Shown here in pieces: positions 4,454 through 59,421 of a stretch of 64,000 nucleotides of DNA. Positions within the stretch are counted from its first letter, which is position 1; every line of letters starts with the position of its first letter. The notes under the pieces are model-generated. The model was not told the origin of the DNA and did no database searches. It saw only the letters and a list, made by a program, of their open reading frames with translations. Made by a program: the position numbers and the translations under genes. This DNA comes from Muscardinus avellanarius (lineage: Eukaryota; Chordata; Mammalia; Rodentia; Gliridae), in assembly GCA_963383645.1 (NCBI GenBank), contig OY726572.1:70308856-70372855 (forward strand). The letters are read 5' to 3'.

Positions 4454-4731
4454 CAAGTATACTGGGGATTGAATCCAGGGGCATACTAACTCTTAGCTAC
4501 ACCCCAGCTCTTTTTATTTTTCATTTTAAAACAGGGTCTAAGCTGGGTGTGGTGGGGCACGCTTGTAATCCCCGTGCTTGGGAGGCAGAGACAGGAGGAT
4601 CGCGCAGGTTCGAAGCCAGCCACGCGCACTCTGGCTTAGGAGACCCTGTTTCCAAATAAAAATGTAAAAAATAGGTCTGGGAGTGTAGTCCGGAGGTAGA
4701 AGGGCTTCCAGGAACCCCAGTACCACCAAAA

Positions 4732-19904: not shown

Positions 19905-20405
19905 GAAGATGGCGACCAAGAAAAGCGGGGCTTAAGATTCCCACTAACAACCAATCTCCATTACCACAAAAAGAGCGCCTTTCATAGCCAGAAAACACCA
20001 TCACCAGAAAAACAAAAAAACCACCAGGCTCCAGAGAGAAAGCGAACTGAGAACAGAGCTCAGGGCCACAGAGGAGACACACGCGCCCGAGGACGCGGCA
20101 GCAGCGCCATACTGCCGGCGGCAGCGGCGAACTCAGCGGACGGCTACAGCAAGCCGAGGTGAGCCGATGCGGAACAGCCAGGCGGGATCTTTCGGCGCAG
20201 ACAGCATTTAAAGCTCCCAGTGGCTGAGCTCAGCACACGCTGCAGGGATTCAGCGTGGAAATCAAAACCAGAGAAGAAAAAATACGCCAGCCTCATGGCC
20301 GAGGGCGTGGCAGAGGCGCCATATTGCCACCGGCGGTGGCAGCAGCAGTGAATTCACTGAGTCCAGTACAGCTACATCTATGTACTCAAGAACAGTGAGT
20401 CAAAT
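19905..20405 (+). promoter_or_regulatory. L1-type 5' UTR promoter with tandem monomers and YY1-like sites
   Basis: CpG-rich 5' region of the half-L1. The first bases, GAAGATGGCGAC, resemble a YY1 site at the transcription start, as in human L1. Two related monomers carry gcgccatactgcc at 20104 and gcgccatattgcc at 20316, a 212-bp period; GCCATNTT-type cores are also YY1-like, on the other strand. Promoter function is inferred from position and family knowledge. Confidence 0.6.
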
Positions 20406-20687
20406 TGCGGGCCACAGAGGAGAAATCCCAGTATTGTGCCTCCTGGGACTTGACCCAGTGAGGGAGTGGTGGTGGCAGAGATATCACACCATAGGAGAGC
20501 GTGCAACCTGGCACCCCCCATAGTTTAAAGCAGCCTCTATCGACTCCCTGGGTCGGAGACTCTGTGATACAACCCAGTAAAAGAGTAGTAGGGTCTGAGA
20601 TAATACAGACTCGAGATCCAGAGCACCTTAAGTGAAGCCATAGTGACCCAAGGGAAGAACCCAGAGAAGGCACAAACCTCCGAAATC

Positions 20688-21605
20688 ATGGGAAAGAGGA
20701 ATAACACTGAAGTAATGAATGTGCACAACCCCACAACATCAGAACCTGATAAAACAGAAAATCAGAGATTTCTAGAAGATCAAATCAGGAAAATAACTGT
20801 AGAAATAATAGAGGTGCTTCGAAAAGAACTCAGAGAGAGCCAAAAAGAGATAAAGGATGCAATTAATGAAGTAAAGGCCTCAATTCAAAGCACAAACAAC
20901 CGATTAGACCACATGGAGAACAGAATCTCGCTCTTAGAAGATGAGCAATCCAAAAATGAATGCATAGTTTCTAATCTAGAAAAAGATATCCAACAGCAGG
21001 AATCTGACATTGAAGAAATATGGGCCCATTTTAAGAGAGCTAACCTAAGAATAATTGGAATAGAGGAGGGAAAAGAAAGTGATACCAAAGGGATCAACAA
21101 TCTCTTCAAGGAAGTAATAGCAGAAAATTTTCCAAATATAGAGCAAGAGGTTGATACACAGATCCAGGAAACTTATAGAACTCCCTTTAGACAGGATCCG
21201 AGAAGAGGATCCCCACGCCATATAATTGTCAAAATGACCAATGTGGAAGCCAAGCAGAGAATCTTAAAGGCAACAAAAACAAAGGGCCAAGTGACATTCA
21301 GAGGCAAACCAATTAGAATCACTCCAGACTTCCCAAACCAAGTCATGAGAGCCAGAAGGGCTTGGAGTAACATATTCCAAACTCTGAAAGAAAACAACTT
21401 CCAGCCAAAAATTTCCTATCCAGCAAAACTTTCTATCAAATTAGATGGAGAAATAAGAAGCTTCCATGACAAACAGAAACTGAAGGAATTTATGTCTTCA
21501 AAACCAGCGCTAGAGAAAATACTCAAAGAGATTAACTACAAAGAAGAAATAGGTAACACTCACCAGAACCAGAGAAACAAGAGTTTCCATCCAACAGACA
21601 ACTAA
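20688..21605 (+). CDS. L1 ORF1p-like RNA-binding protein (half-L1 copy 1)
   Basis: Intact 305-codon frame starting at the ATG at 20688 (MGKRNNTEVM) and ending in TAA at 21603-21605. The frame is also open for 15 codons upstream, but without an ATG. L1 ORF1p is a trimeric nucleic-acid chaperone that coats L1 RNA in the cytoplasm. Visible layout: acidic N-terminus; long heptad-rich coiled coil at about 25-115 (KITVEIIEVLRKELRESQKE); RRM-like domain at about 117-200, from LRIIGIEEG to RHIIVKMTN; C-terminal domain at about 205-275 with YPAKLSIKLDGEIRSFHDKQ. Length is slightly below the 338 residues of human ORF1p. It shares about 96% of residues with copy 2. No ORF2 follows. Confidence 0.88.
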   Translation: MGKRNNTEVMNVHNPTTSEPDKTENQRFLEDQIRKITVEIIEVLRKELRESQKEIKDAINEVKASIQSTNNRLDHMENRISLLEDEQSKNECIVSNLEKDIQQQESDIEEIWAHFKRANLRIIGIEEGKESDTKGINNLFKEVIAENFPNIEQEVDTQIQETYRTPFRQDPRRGSPRHIIVKMTNVEAKQRILKATKTKGQVTFRGKPIRITPDFPNQVMRARRAWSNIFQTLKENNFQPKISYPAKLSIKLDGEIRSFHDKQKLKEFMSSKPALEKILKEINYKEEIGNTHQNQRNKSFHPTDN

Positions 21606-21639
21606 GATTGGTTATCTGTGGAGATTCATTATTTATGTT

Positions 21640-22330
21640 AGTCTTTTACCTATCTCTAAATTGTATTGTTTGCCTTTATTGTTGTTAATTTTTAGGATTT
21701 CTAGTTGGAATATTAATATACCTTCAGATATAGCATTTGGAAATATTTTATCCAATTCTATTAGTAGCTTTTAACTCTGTTTACATTGTCTTTGGATATA
21801 CAATATTTTCTTTTATTTTTTAGGGAGTTTGTATATTCTTCTGTTGCCTGTGCCATTGAAATCATATCCAAGAAATCACTGCCAATTTCAATGTTGTGAG
21901 GTTTTATGACCCAGATTTTCTCCTAAAAGTTTATAGTCTTAAGATTTATATTTAGGTCTTTTATCTAGTTTGAGTTAATACTTGTATGTGGGATTAGGTA
22001 AGGGTCCAATTTTATTCTTTTCCATGTAATTATTATTTTTCAACAATATTTAGTTAAAAGATTATTATTTCCACCACCAAATCTTCGTGGAAACCTTGTC
22101 AAAAATAACTTGAAAATATAGGGAAGAAGTTAGCTCTAGGCTTGTATTTAACTCCAATGGTCTATATATCTGCCTTTAGAACAGTACTACACTGTTTCAA
22201 TTATTGTAGCTTTATATGGTTTGAAATCAGAAAATATACATCTTCTAGCTTTGTTTTTGCTTCGAGATTGTTTTGGGTATCTAGAGTCCATATTCCATAT
22301 CAGGATAGATTTTTTTCTGAAAAATAAATA
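21640..22330 (-). mobile_element. Antisense ancient-L1 ORF2 segment built into half-L1 copy 1
   Basis: The minus strand shows old L1 ORF2 order: aaagctacaataattgaaac, gtagtactgttctaaaggca, agtattaactcaaactagat, tttcttggatatgatttcaa, ggcacaggcaacagaagaat. It is far more decayed than the host half-L1 and matches ancient mammalian L1 rather than the L1s nearby. The same segment is in copy 2 at about 57000-57690 in the corresponding orientation. Its ends are approximate. Confidence 0.8.
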
Positions 22331-22664
22331 TATGATAGTTTCACCTAAAAAAAAAGAAAAAAAATATTCTCTGGTAAGAAAGAAAGCAAAAAGAAATATT
22401 GAAATGTTATCTTTAAGTCATCAAAAGCTTGGTATCAGACAAATGAAACTGTTATGTGAGATTATCATTTTTAATTTTGGATAAATTGCTATAATACTAG
22501 ATGTCAACCACTAAGCCAAGCATGGGAGGGAGGGATGGGGAGAGAATGGGATGGGGATCAGGTGGGGGCTGACTGGGCGATGTGTGCATGTATGTCTACA
22601 AAAGTCTGTATCCCACTATGATGTATGAATACAGTGCACCAATAAAATAAAATTAAAAAAAAAA

Positions 22665-49473: not shown

Positions 49474-49491
49474 TCCAGGGAGACTATTCTT
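49474..49491. repeat. Target-site duplication, left copy (composite VNTR element)
   Basis: tccagggagactattctt, repeated without mismatch at 51946-51963. The last T may be ambiguous with the T-rich tail. Confidence 0.93.
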
Positions 49492-49510
49492 TTTTCTTTC
49501 TTTCTTTTTT

Positions 49511-49900
49511 TTATTAATTTATTTTTTAAATTGGTGCATTGTAGTCATATATCAATCACATTGGAGTACAAGACTTGAGAGGATATACAAGCACACATCA
49601 TCCAATTAGCCCTCCTCCAGCCTCCATCCCATTCTCTCCCCCTCCCTCCATCCCACGCTTCTTTGGTGATTTACTTTGATACATTTGTTTATGTACCTCC
49701 TGCGTTTTAAAGGGGCTCCCTCCTCCAGTATTACATACCCTCTGATTGGTGACATTAGTTGCTTCACTATAGGGCCCTTTCTATAGCTCAACCTCTTCCT
49801 GTTGTCCTTTTTCTCCTAGTTATTGCTGATTAAGAGAAGCGTCTGATTTATATTTTCTGCGATATTTCTCTGTGCATGCTGCATTGCAAGTACCGATCCC
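49511..49900 (-). mobile_element. L1 3' module of the composite VNTR element
   Basis: Minus-strand order matches the L1 copies at 12780-13124 and 45560-45900: aaatcagacgcttctcttaa, actaggagaaaaaggacaac, then the G-rich ggagggagggggagagaatg, gatgtgtgcttgtatatcct and actacaatgcaccaattt. The upstream join to the VNTR lies between about 49870 and 49930. Confidence 0.8.
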
Positions 49901-49929
49901 ACTCTTGATGGTCCCAGTAGTGGGGTGGC

Positions 49930-51065
49930 TACTCAGTGGACTGATCCAGACCTTGCTGGCTCAAGCAGCGGCCTTACCTCATGGGAGGCCCCAGTTCTGG
50001 TCTCGCTGGCCCCTGCACTGGTCTAACCCCTAAGCTGGCTTTGGTCCCGGCCTTGGAGGCCGCAAGAGTGAACTTGCCTCACGCCAGGCTCCGATGCTGG
50101 CCATTGGCCCCTGCACCGGCCTAACCCCTTGGCAGAATTCCAATCCCGGCCTCGGAGGCCCCAGCACCGGCCTAGCCTCACGGCAGGCTCCAATGCCGGC
50201 CTCGTTGGCCTCAGCACTGGCCTAACCCCTCGGCAGGTTCCGTTCCCGGGTTAGGAGGCCCCAGCACTGGCCATGTCTCACTGCAGGCTCCGATGCTGGC
50301 CTCGCCTCATGGCAGGCTCCGATGCCAGCCTTGCTGGCCCAAGCACCGGTCTAGCCCTTCGGCAGGTTGTTATCCTGGCCTCGGAGGCCCCAGTACCGGC
50401 CTTGCCTCACGGCAGGCTCTGATGCCAGCCTCGCTGGCTCCAGAACTGGCCTAACCCCTCGACAGGCTCTTATCCCAGCCTCGGAGGTCCCAGTACCGGC
50501 CTTGCCTCCTGGCAGGCTCTGATGCCGGCCTCACTGGCCCCAGCACCGGTCTAACCCTCGGCAGGCTCTTATCCTGGCCTCGGAAGCACCAGTACTGGCC
50601 TTGCCTCATGGCAGGCTCCGATGCCGGCCTTACTGGCCCCAGCACCGACCTAACCCCTCGGCAGGCTCTTATCCTGACCTTGGAGGCCCCAGCACTGGCC
50701 TTGCCTCACGGCAGGCTCCGATGCTGGCCTCGCTGACCCCAGCACTGGCCTAACCCCTCGGCAGGCTATTATCCTGGCCTCAGAGACCCCAGTACTGGCC
50801 TTGCCTCACGGCAGGCTCCGATGCCGGCCTCGCTGGCCCCAGCACTGGCCTAACCCCTCAGCAGGTTCTGGACCCACCTCGGAGGCCCCAGCACAAGCCT
50901 TGCCTCATGGCAGGCTCCAATGCTGGCCTCGCTGGCCCCAGCATTGGTCTAACCCCTCGGCAGGTTCCAATCCCAGCCACGGAGGCCTCAGTAGTGGCCT
51001 TGCCTCACAGCAAGCTCCAATGTCGGCCACTGGCCCCGGCGCCCGCCTAACCCCTCAGCAGGTTC
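49930..51065 (-). repeat. GC-rich VNTR, about 11 units of 100 bp
   Basis: The anchor ctaaccc(c)tcggcagg recurs at 50451, 50551, 50650, 50750, 50850, 50949 and 51047, a spacing of 98-100 bp. Each unit has two related halves of about 50 bp, built around ggcctcggaggccccagcac and ggcctcgctggccccagcac, joined by cttgcctcacggcaggctc. Outer units (49930-50330) are more diverged and one is shortened. Open frames through it have no coding meaning. Confidence 0.92.
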
Positions 51066-51560
51066 TGATCACTATCTCTGTGGTTATTATTTCAAAGGTT
51101 CCAGGTGTAATGTATCAGATCTCTGCCTCCCCTGAGTATTGGCCACTGGCATTGCTACTGCCTCCACCATTTCAAATCCTTCCCAGGCTCTTTTTCCACT
51201 CTGAATGTTGTCTAGTGTTCCTAAGCATGCATGATGGTAGCATTTGACATTTGGTGTAATTTCTCCAAAAAAATAAAGTTGGTAAGATCCGGTTTCTGCT
51301 TCTCCTGAATACAAGTCTCCACCACCATCGTGGAGAACTCTTTCAACACCGCATTTCTCCTTGGTCTCTGCTAAACTCTCTCCTTACAGGTGATGTCTGA
51401 GATTCTTAACAATATAGAGAAATAGCAGTCCTCTTTCACGGCTAAATTTTCCATAAGTTCCAGTGCATTTAGATAAGTTTTGTCTGCATCTCCAGTGTCC
51501 TGGCATCCATAACGGCTTTCTTACCTCCTCTACGATACTTTTCTTTATCTTTTTCTGTTC
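51066..51560 (-). other. Middle segment of the composite element, origin unknown
   Basis: Normal GC, non-repetitive, lying between the two tandem arrays. On the element strand a 75-codon stretch (51314-51087) is open from a TTG, without ATG, and includes YFFGEITPNVK and KRAWEGFEMVEAVAMPVANT. It looks more like a captured host or retroviral fragment than random sequence, but I do not recognise it. A donor-like gaggaggtaagaaa lies near 51520 on the element strand. Confidence 0.5.
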
Positions 51561-51945
51561 TGGGCCCGGTTTCTCCAGGGGTCTGGCGTGCTACTCGCAG
51601 TTCGGCCCGGGGCCCAGGGTCCCGCGACCTGGGCCCCAGCTGGCGTGTCCCGCGCTCGACCCCTGCCCAGAACCCAGCGTCTTACTGGGCCTGGTTTCTC
51701 CAGGGGTCTGGCGTGCTATGCGCAGTTCGACCTGGGGCCCAGAGTCCTGTGATCCGGGCCCCATCTGGCGTGCCCCACGCTCGACCCCTGCCCAGAACCC
51801 ACCGTCTTACTGGGCCCGGTTTCTCCAGGGGTCTGGCGTGCTATGCGCAGTTCGACCTGGGGCCCAGAGTCCTGTGACCCGGGCCCCATCTGGCGTGCCC
51901 TGCGCGCGACCCCCGCCCAGAACCCAGCGTCTTACTGGGCCCGGT
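51561..51945 (-). repeat. 125-bp tandem repeat at the 5' end of the composite element
   Basis: tgggcc(c/t)ggtttctccagg begins units at 51561, 51686 and 51811, and a stub at 51936: exactly 125 bp each. The units are CpG-rich and similar; units 2 and 3 are nearly identical. Position at the 5' end and composition suggest promoter monomers, like those of mouse L1, by analogy only. Confidence 0.93.
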
Positions 51946-51963
51946 TCCAGGGAGACTATTCTT
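51946..51963. repeat. Target-site duplication, right copy (composite VNTR element)
   Basis: tccagggagactattctt, identical to 49474-49491. Pre-insertion sequence continues as aatacttgccgatatgtgtg. Confidence 0.93.
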
Positions 51964-56653: not shown

Positions 56654-56666
56654 TGTGTATATGTAT
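56654..56666. repeat. Target-site duplication, left copy (half-L1 copy 2)
   Basis: tgtgtatatgtat, repeated at 59422-59434. The low-complexity sequence makes the exact ends soft. Confidence 0.75.
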
Positions 56667-56999
56667 TTTTTTTTTAATTTTATTTTATTGGTGCACTGTA
56701 TTCATACATCACAGTGGGATACAAACTTTTGTAGACATACATGCACACATTGCCCAGTCAGTCCCCACCCGATCCCCACCCCATTCTCTCCCCATCCCTC
56801 CCTCCCATGCTTGGCTTAGTGGTTGACATCTAGTATTATAGCAATATCCAAAATTAAAAATGTTAATCTCACATAACAGTTTCATTTGTCTGATGCCAAG
56901 CTTTTGATGATTTAAAGATAACATTTCAATATTTCTTTTTGCTTTCTTTCTTACCAGAGCATATTTTTTTCTGTTTTTTTGGTGAAACTATCATATATT

Positions 57000-57690
57000 T
57001 ATATATTTATTTTTCAGAAAAAAATCTATCCTAATATGGAATATGAATTCTAGATACCCAAAACGATCTTGAAGAAGAACAAAGCTAGCAGATATATATT
57101 TTCTGATTTCAAACCATATAAAGCTACAATAATTGAAACAGTGTAGTACTGTTCTAAAGGCAGATATATAAACCATTGGAGTTAAATACAAGCCTAGAGC
57201 TAAATTCTTCCCTATATTGTCAAGTTATTTTTGACAAGGTTTCCACAAACATTTGGTGGTGGAAATAATATTCTTTTAACTAAATATTGTTGAAAAATAA
57301 TAATTACATGGAAAAGAATAAAATTGGACCCTTACCTAATCCCACATACAAGTATTAACTCAAAATAGATAAAAGACCTAAATATAAATCTTAAGACTAT
57401 AAACTTTTAGGAGAAAATCCGGGTCATAAAACCTCACAACATTGAAATTGACAGTGATTTCTTGGATATGATTTCAATGGCACAGGCAACAGAAGAGTAT
57501 ACAAACTCCCTAAAAAATAGAAAACATATTGTATATCCAAAGACAATGTAAACAGAGTTAACAGTTACTAATAGAATGGGATAAAATATTTCAAAATGCT
57601 ATATCTGAAGGTATATTAATATCCCAACTAGAAATCCTAAAAATTAACAACAATAAAGGCAAACAATACCCTTTAGAGATAGGTAAAAGA
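57000..57690 (+). mobile_element. Antisense ancient-L1 ORF2 segment built into half-L1 copy 2
   Basis: The plus strand reads ccaaaacgatcttgaagaag, aaagctacaataattgaaac, tacaagtattaactcaaaat, gatttcttggatatgatttc and ggcacaggcaacagaagagt, i.e. old L1 ORF2 in sense on the strand opposite to the half-L1. It corresponds base for base in order to 21640-22330. Confidence 0.8.
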
Positions 57691-57726
57691 CTAACATAAA
57701 TAATGAATCTCCACAGATAACCAATC

Positions 57727-58647
57727 TTAGTTGTCTGTTGGATGGAAAATCTTGTTTCTCTGGTTCTGGTGAGTGTTACCTATTTCTTCTTTGTAGTTAA
57801 TCTCTTTGAGTATTTTCTCTAGCGCTGGTTTTGAAGACATAAATTCCTTCAGTTTCTGTTTGTCATGGAAGCTTCTTATTTCTCCATCTAATTTGATAGA
57901 AAGTTTTGCTGGATAGGAAATTTTTGGCTGGAAGTTGTTTTCTTTCAGAGTTTGGAATATGTTACTCCAAGCCCTTCTGGCTCTCATGACTTGGTTTGGG
58001 ACGTCTGGAGTGATTCTAATTGGTTTGCCTCTGAATGTCACTTGGCCCTTTGTTTTTGTTGCCTTTAAGATTCTCTGCTTGGCTTCCACATTGGTCATTT
58101 TGACAATTATGTGGCGTGGGGATCCTCTTCTCCGATCCTGTCTAAAGGGAGTTCTATAAGTTTCCTGGACCTGTGTATCAACCTCTTGCTCTATGTTTGG
58201 AAAATTTTCTGCTATTACTTCCTTGAAGAGATTGTTGATCCCTTTGGTTTCACTTTCTTTTCCCTCCTCTATTCCAATTATTCTTAGGTTAGCTCTCTTA
58301 AAATGGGCCCATATTTCTTCAATGTCAGATTCCTGCTGTTGGATATTTTTTTCTAGATTAGAAACTATGCGTTCATTTTTGGATTGCTCATCTTCTAAGA
58401 GCGAGGTTCTGTTCTCCATGTGTTCTAATCGGTTGTTTGTGCTTTGAATTGAGGCCTTTACTTCATTAATTGCATCCTTTATCTCTTTTTGGCTCTCTCT
58501 GAGTTCTTTTCGAAGCACCTCTATTATTTCTACAGTTATTTTCCTGATTTGATCTTCTAGAAATCTCTGATTTTCTGTTTTATCAGGTTCTGATGTTGTG
58601 GGGTTGTGGGCGGTATTCATTGCTCCAGTATTATTCCTCTTTCCCAT
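57727..58647 (-). CDS. L1 ORF1p-like RNA-binding protein (half-L1 copy 2)
   Basis: Intact 306-codon frame from the ATG at 58647-58645 (MGKRNNTGAM), stop at 57729-57727. Same three-part layout as copy 1: coiled coil, RRM-like LRIIGIEEG to RHIIVKMTN, C-terminal YPAKLSIKLDG. About a dozen substitutions and one extra residue near position 12 separate the two. The charged RNA-binding stretch reads RQDRRRGSPRH here against RQDPRRGSPRH in copy 1. It lacks any ORF2 partner, so it could act only on its own RNA or with ORF2p supplied by a full L1. Confidence 0.88.
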   Translation of the reverse strand: MGKRNNTGAMNTAHNPTTSEPDKTENQRFLEDQIRKITVEIIEVLRKELRESQKEIKDAINEVKASIQSTNNRLEHMENRTSLLEDEQSKNERIVSNLEKNIQQQESDIEEIWAHFKRANLRIIGIEEGKESETKGINNLFKEVIAENFPNIEQEVDTQVQETYRTPFRQDRRRGSPRHIIVKMTNVEAKQRILKATKTKGQVTFRGKPIRITPDVPNQVMRARRAWSNIFQTLKENNFQPKISYPAKLSIKLDGEIRSFHDKQKLKEFMSSKPALEKILKEINYKEEIGNTHQNQRNKIFHPTDN

Positions 58648-58919
58648 GATTTCGGATGTTTGTGCCTTCTCTGGGTTCTTCCCTTGGGTCACTATGACTT
58701 CACTTAAGGTGTTCTGGATCTCGAGTCAGTAGTATCTCAGACCCCACTACTCCTTTACTGGGTTTTATCACAGAGTCTCCGACCCAGGGAGTCGATAGAG
58801 GCTGCTTTAAACTATGGGGGGGTGCCAGGTTGCACGTTCTCCTATGGTGTGATATCTCTGCCACCACCACTCCCTCACTGGGTACAGTGAGGTACAGTAC
58901 TGGGATTTCTCCTCTGTGG

Positions 58920-59421
58920 CCCGCAATTTGACTCACTGTTCTTGAGTACGCAGATGTAGCTGTACTGGATTTGGCGAATTCACTGCTGCTGCCGCCGCCG
59001 GTGGCAATATGGCGTCGCAGCCACGCCCTCGGCCATGAGGCTGGCGTATTTTTTCTTCTCTGGTTTTGATTTCCACTCTGAATCCCTGCAGCGTGTGCTG
59101 AGCTCAGCCACTGGGAGCTTTAAATCCTCTCTGCGCCGAAAGATCCCGCCTGGCTGTTCCGCATCGGCTCACCTTGGCTTGCTGTAGCCGTCCGATGAGT
59201 TCGCCGCTGCCGCCGGCAGTATGGCGCTGCTGCCGCGTCCTCGGGTGCGTGTGTCTCCTCTGTGGCCCTGAGCTCTGTTCTCAGTCCGCTTTCTCTCTGG
59301 AGCCTGGTGGTTTTTTTGTTTTTCTGGTGATGGTGTTTTCTGGCTATGAAAGGCGCTGGTTTTGTGGTAATGGAGATTGGTTGTTAGCAGGGCTCTTAAG
59401 CCCCGCTTTTCTCGGTCGCCC
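58920..59421 (-). promoter_or_regulatory. L1-type 5' UTR promoter of half-L1 copy 2
   Basis: CpG-rich with two monomers (atggcgtcgcag near 59009 and atggcgctgctg at 59220, about 211 bp apart), as in copy 1. A near-palindrome, ggggcttaagagccct, lies close to the 5' end on the element strand. Promoter function inferred. Confidence 0.6.

Follow-up and report, generated by a model that had tools for sequence, protein, structure and literature searches.

The unit at positions 49474..51963 of the window (the whole stretch of 64,000 nucleotides analyzed) is almost certainly a young insertion that belongs to a non-autonomous family of composite VNTR elements, probably transcribed from the 5′ monomers and mobilized by L1 in trans, and the best reading of its make-up is convergence on the SVA/LAVA design from different parts. 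The wider claim that this is an undescribed and independently evolved VNTR composite of a non-primate mammal, with several thousand copies, probable recent activity and an L1-style tandem-monomer promoter, is offered tentatively and with slightly less than even confidence. A search of the literature for a rodent equivalent of an SVA-like composite found none. Osmanski et al. reportedly made a large curation of mammal repeats, and a repeat library or this curation may already hold the family, perhaps under another name.

The composite unit is 2,454 bp long and lies on the minus strand, running from 51945 to 49492 between the two copies of a duplication identical at 18/18 positions, exactly where the initial annotation had placed a minus-strand unit inside an 18-bp duplication. 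The anatomy claimed there (125-bp repeats, a middle, a 100-bp GC-rich VNTR, an L1 3′ end and an A-rich tail) is also right, the order in the sense direction being monomers, middle, VNTR, spacer, an L1-type 3′ end of about 370 nt and the A-rich tail. The 5′ part consists of 3.1 tandem CpG-rich monomers of 125 bp (about 51560..51945, minus strand) with 91% matches, a GC content of 70.5% and a CpG observed/expected ratio of 0.67, and forms a putative internal promoter. The window copy has its 5′ end at monomer position 116, with a 3-nt gap, and its monomers 1 and 2 differ at 2/95 positions. The middle (0.49 kb, 51071..51559, minus strand, 41% GC) occupies a tether-like place with the monomers on one side and the VNTR on the other. 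The VNTR (49970..51070, minus strand, GC about 65%, or 65.5% to one decimal place) is built from 100-bp units each composed of two 50-bp halves, 80/100 positions agreeing when the unit is shifted by 50. Its inner units are more alike and its edge units degenerate, with a median difference between inner units of 8.3% at non-CpG sites (20 pairs). Because the VNTR units differ more than monomers 1 and 2 do, the tandem arrangement of the VNTR probably predates the insertion. A short non-repeat spacer (49872..49969, minus strand) leads from the last VNTR unit to the L1-type 3′ domain (49505..49871, minus strand), which matches four other L1 3′ ends of the window at 69–76% (blastn); in the copies read, about 80 nt separate the last VNTR match from the start of the 3′ query. 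The A-rich tail (49492..49531, minus strand) contains two AATAAA words.

The target site duplication (TSD) bracketing the unit lies at 51946..51963 on the 5′ side of the element and at 49474..49491 on the 3′ side (no strand assigned), reads AAGAATAGTCTCCCTGGA in the sense direction and gives a sense insertion site of TT/AAGA. Its last 7 nt, CCCTGGA in sense, are present in the monomer too, and since these nucleotides nearest the element may be junction microhomology, the certain length of the TSD is 11–18 nt. As a chance control, exact repeats of at least 14 nt at a spacing of 2–3 kb were counted across the window after removal of simple-sequence pairs, giving 12, six of them at least 18 nt long. 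The other five pairs of at least 18 nt sit, by reading, in SINE or L1 copies, and the TSD pair exactly brackets the element.

Copies were searched for in the element's own genome (2,497,143,478 bases in 104 contigs). Counts of 30-nt words with up to 3 mismatches, for which the same words reversed served as the control, gave 3,581 occurrences of a word from the middle and 3,075 of a word across the middle/VNTR border, with 0 for either reversed control. Since the border word is found 14% less often than the middle word, in counts that are unpaired, the VNTR may be missing after some middles, or the sequence there may have diverged. Similarity searches returned 3,176 first-look candidates with the monomer, 3,026 with the middle and 4,457 with the VNTR/3′ junction as query; for each, 40 candidates were scored and 40/40 match, at 97–98% for the middle (excluding the window itself) and 97% for the junction. 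A one-off retrocopy had been considered and was dropped on these dispersed matches to the monomer, middle and junction together with the middle-word count.

Eighty fetched loci were annotated, corresponding to 77 distinct copies, as the window copy is included three times and two loci (L039 and L063) are the same. The order monomers, middle, VNTR is present in 20/20 monomer-centered and 30/30 middle-centered loci, that is 50/50 (49 distinct copies, both sets including the window copy), and VNTR, spacer and 3′ domain follow one another in 30/30 junction-centered loci, for which the query itself held both parts. The 3′ domain is reached in 18/30 middle-centered copies (12 at least partly inside the locus and six after added stretches, the remaining 12/30 having been read less far), and it is the same diverged L1-type domain in 18/18. 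VNTR and spacer together, measured from where the middle ends to where the 3′ query begins, span 602 to 2,982 bp (n = 25 copies); taken modulo 50 in 19 copies, this length falls at 0–3 in six, at 30–34 in 10 and elsewhere in three. The family has the central GC-rich VNTR of copy-to-copy variable length that defines a VNTR composite, and its dispersed copies have TSDs, A tails and L1-endonuclease sites. Many dispersed copies with the same order, variable VNTR length and their own TSDs were what the initial annotation had proposed to look for, and all were found.

The marks of insertion were read in two sets of copies with one copy in common. In the first, the 5′ flank and the sequence beyond the A-rich tail have 9–17 nt in common in 10/12 distinct copies, the misses being L032 and L038. 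For the second, the program finds at least 9 nt in 10/13 copies, six of which were judged clean (10–21 nt); L029, L034, L035 and L047 have simple sequence and are hence ambiguous, L023 and L048 are imperfect, and L038 has none. Overall, clean TSDs are present in 16/24 distinct copies plus the window copy and are unclear or absent in 8/24, and mismatched-pair controls gave at least 9 nt in 21/156 and 19/156 (two of the 21 being the same copy twice). The words TTAAAA or TTTAAA occur 5–26 nt upstream of 24/50 distinct 5′ ends compared with 2.9% of 980 control flank pieces, and together with the TT/AAGA site of the window copy this bears out the earlier proposal of an L1-endonuclease-type insertion. 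Six TSD-bearing copies are truncated within the VNTR (L056, L057, L062, L068, L074 and L078). TSDs, endonuclease sites and 5′ truncation are what insertion by L1 endonuclease and target-primed reverse transcription leaves behind.

Individual loci show further features. L032 and L038 are without the usual A tail or TSD, and L038 has SINE-like sequence (by reading) directly after its 3′ end. L057 is an apparent nested insertion, an older copy having its 3′ domain split by a young one that points the other way, and in L044 apparent nesting takes the form of VNTR in reverse upstream of the first monomer.

The 5′ ends of the copies are unevenly placed with respect to the monomer. Position 111–112 is the 5′ end in 10/50 distinct copies, a number reached in 0/20,000 uniform simulations, and these 10 copies have 1.2, 2.2, 3.2, 4.2 or 5.2 monomers ahead of the middle. 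Among the 29 middle-centered copies other than that of the window, which were chosen independently of monomer length, six have their 5′ end at 111–112, and 10/20,000 simulations are as high. The other 40/50 ends are scattered, with four at position 59 and three each at 28 and 41, and are read as truncations. The shared position of 10/50 5′ ends points to a predicted transcription start in each monomer, and 5′ ends clustered at successive monomers provide a testable promoter map. RNA polymerase II would start near position 112 of a monomer and read to the L1-type polyadenylation site; L1 ORF2p would take the RNA in trans by way of its L1-like, A-tailed 3′ end, and target-primed reverse transcription at TT/AAAA-type nicks would turn the RNA into a new insertion. 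With a start site in every monomer, the promoter would travel with each new copy.

Divergence from the column majority at non-CpG sites averages 0.9% in the middle (n = 50; 1.3% for the window copy) and 0.6% in the 3′ domain (n = 34; 1.6% for the window copy), values that overstate youth and uniformity because the copies sampled in detail are the best hits to the window copy. Judged by these divergences, the sampled copies are young. The 3′ domain is 95–98% identical among sibling copies, and two loci, L057 and L066, happened to include the 3′ ends of older members, at 87–88%. Over 155 columns, the 3′ domain of the window copy differs by 26–32% from the four other L1 3′ ends of the window, so that of the claimed L1 3′ end its L1 type stands, but it is no recent piece of the L1s in the window. 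The age of the domain and the older members at 87–88% indicate that the family keeps its own long-separate L1-type end.

When the middle was translated in all three sense frames, Pfam gave nothing over the cut-off and no ORF1 or other L1 protein domain, the single match below the cut-off being Ribosomal_L18p (E 0.069), and open frames of at least 150 amino acids overlapping the element run through the repeats on the opposite strand. The window unit has an L1 3′ end, and at 2,454 bp with a central VNTR it is too small for both ORF1 and ORF2; the ORF1 that HAL1 retains is likewise without a Pfam match in any sense frame of the middle. Protein searches with frames spanning the monomer/middle and VNTR/middle had 0/169 and 0/647 candidates, respectively, passing E 0.01, and Rfam gave no match at gathering scores. 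Exact VNTR words are absent from viral and prokaryote contigs, a null result of little weight because a squirrel-type SINE word is likewise absent from the viral contigs.

The 5′ parts were compared with L1 and with SINEs. Neither the 5′UTR-ORF1 of an L1 (19911–21605) nor an older L1 (9700–13130) resembles monomer 1, the middle or a 200-nt piece of the VNTR more than shuffled sequence does, and blastn within the window gives no L1 match for monomer, middle or VNTR. The window copy has no CCCTCT hexamer; its best blastn match to an Alu has E 0.024 over 16 nt, which is at chance level for an Alu-like 5′ region, and SINE sequences have no significant match to it. With neither the hexamer nor a significant Alu/SINE match in the window copy, an independent convergent origin relative to SVA/LAVA, which the initial annotation had put forward, is supported as the better reading. 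The SINEs of the window include 44 segments matching squirrel-type Alu/ID, one matching ID and none matching mouse B2 (E 1e-4), which suggests a squirrel-type rodent as host; the assignment is weak because 34 segments also match human Alu. ARAGORN places a tRNA-Pro(ggg) at 4545–4629 (plus strand), which may be a SINE or chance.

The C-terminal domain of L1 ORF1 has 38,986 first-look candidates in the same genome, 150/150 of those scored pass the cut-off, and many open ORF1 frames of 320, 331 and 333 amino acids occur among them, which suggests several recent L1 lineages in the genome. An L1 3′ end with a 73% match to the 3′ domain of the element lies in one of two stretches sampled downstream of long ORF1 frames, at positions that were guessed; the other stretch has none. 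Within the window are two ORF1-bearing L1 derivatives without ORF2, at 19911–22664 (plus strand) and 56666–59420 (minus strand), which form a pair 95.9% alike and each have an apparent TSD of their own (GAAAATCTTTG and ATACATATACACA). Between their 5′UTR and ORF1 on one side and 150 nt of L1 3′ end on the other lies other sequence of about 0.9 kb, and their ORF1 frames, 333 and 332 amino acids from stop to stop, match Pfam PF02994 and PF17490. The 0.9-kb part includes a 76-nt antisense piece of an old L1 (72%), and as this part recurs at 93–96% in L009 and L047 the derivatives look like a dispersed HAL1-like family. A piece of the 5′UTR of these half-L1s (88%) lies at 1–503 on the minus strand.

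A serious rival to an independent composite concerns the origin of the family and not its mobility. By a HAL1-like logic, an internally deleted L1 lineage would have contributed its 5′UTR and tether as the monomers and middle, the VNTR would have replaced both ORFs, and the L1's own 3′ end would have been kept. Monomers followed by a tether are the layout of the mouse L1 5′UTR, in which 5′ termini likewise favor certain monomer positions in the account drawn on here (part of PMC9022269); the 3′ domain is L1-type, and two ORF1-bearing, ORF2-less copies with an L1 3′ end lie in the same window. The 5′ parts of the family may be those of an L1. Such an origin is nevertheless considered unlikely, as monomer, middle and VNTR are without similarity to window L1s, by shuffle comparison or by blastn, and the VNTR, never ORF1, follows the middle in all 50 loci, which represent 49 distinct copies and were drawn from the best hits.

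A host non-coding transcript retrocopied by L1, in which a CpG island would provide the start, a minisatellite an exon and an old L1 3′ end the terminator, was allowed by the local evidence of an old L1-type end in a young insertion, but it is a very improbable account given that thousands of copies, tandem 5′ monomers and an excess of 5′ ends in one phase fit a self-promoting element; a retrocopy of this kind could be the source of the first copy. Practically no credence is left for an ordinary local minisatellite with a chance duplication, since the degenerate edges and more alike inner units of the VNTR are as in many minisatellites but the dispersal of the whole architecture and the TSDs in most copies examined refute it. 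A second origin of a VNTR composite, apparently unrelated to the first and differing from it in both 5′ end and VNTR, would provide a natural comparison: what SVA, LAVA and this family have in common, a GC-rich VNTR followed downstream by a 3′ end with an A tail, becomes a candidate for what L1 needs in trans movement. On the wider and more tentative reading of an undescribed, independently evolved composite, L1-parasitic composites would repeatedly evolve GC-rich VNTRs because the VNTR helps trans-mobilization.

HAL1 elements, reportedly described as half-L1 elements by Bao and Jurka in 2010, resemble the family in being non-autonomous L1 relatives with an L1-type 3′ end. They differ in that no ORF1 domain was found in the composite, and the two ORF1-only copies of the window fit HAL1 better. 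The mouse L1 5′UTR, as presented in the part of the source used, is similar in having tandem promoter-like monomers followed by a non-repeated stretch and 5′ termini that tend to certain monomer positions; its monomers are 208–214 nt long compared with 125 bp here, the two are likened by layout and not by sequence (PMC9022269), and in the loci seen here no ORF1 follows the monomers and middle. Recombination that yields chimeric insertions of L1 with other RNAs can create new composite elements according to a 2026 survey, the main text of which, in the portion considered, mentions neither squirrel nor marmot (PMC13174262). By reading, that survey catalogues individual insertions (PMC13174262, in part), whereas the family here is amplified. 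In the ground squirrel, LINEs or SINEs are described as quiet in the section of a review referred to here (PMC5857283). Many long ORF1 frames and closely similar copies of the composite family occur in the genome examined; if its host is a squirrel, either that description does not apply or a different species is concerned.

The closest likeness in overall design is to the SVA/LAVA group, the comparison resting on part of one source (PMC4432496). The VNTR composites SVA, LAVA, PVA and FVA are called specific to hominoid primates there, with SVA2, the VNTR-composite ancestor, also in macaque, and all of them have a CT-hexamer/Alu-like region at the 5′ end and contain a GC-rich VNTR. The window copy lacks both the CT-hexamer and an Alu-like region and begins instead with tandem 125-bp CpG-rich monomers, and for this reason the family is not filed as a member of SVA/LAVA. 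The LAVA VNTRs are described in the same part as nearly perfect EagI repeats, whereas the window copy has no EagI site (CGGCCG), and SVA and LAVA belong to hominoids whereas the family here is apparently in a rodent. In common with the group, the family is non-autonomous as far as seen and has a variable GC-rich central VNTR, a 3′ domain, an A tail and a TSD; the VNTR repeats of SVA are 30–50 bp long, comparable with the 50-bp halves of the dispersed family, and LAVA likewise ends in an L1-derived (L1ME) fragment (PMC4432496, same part).
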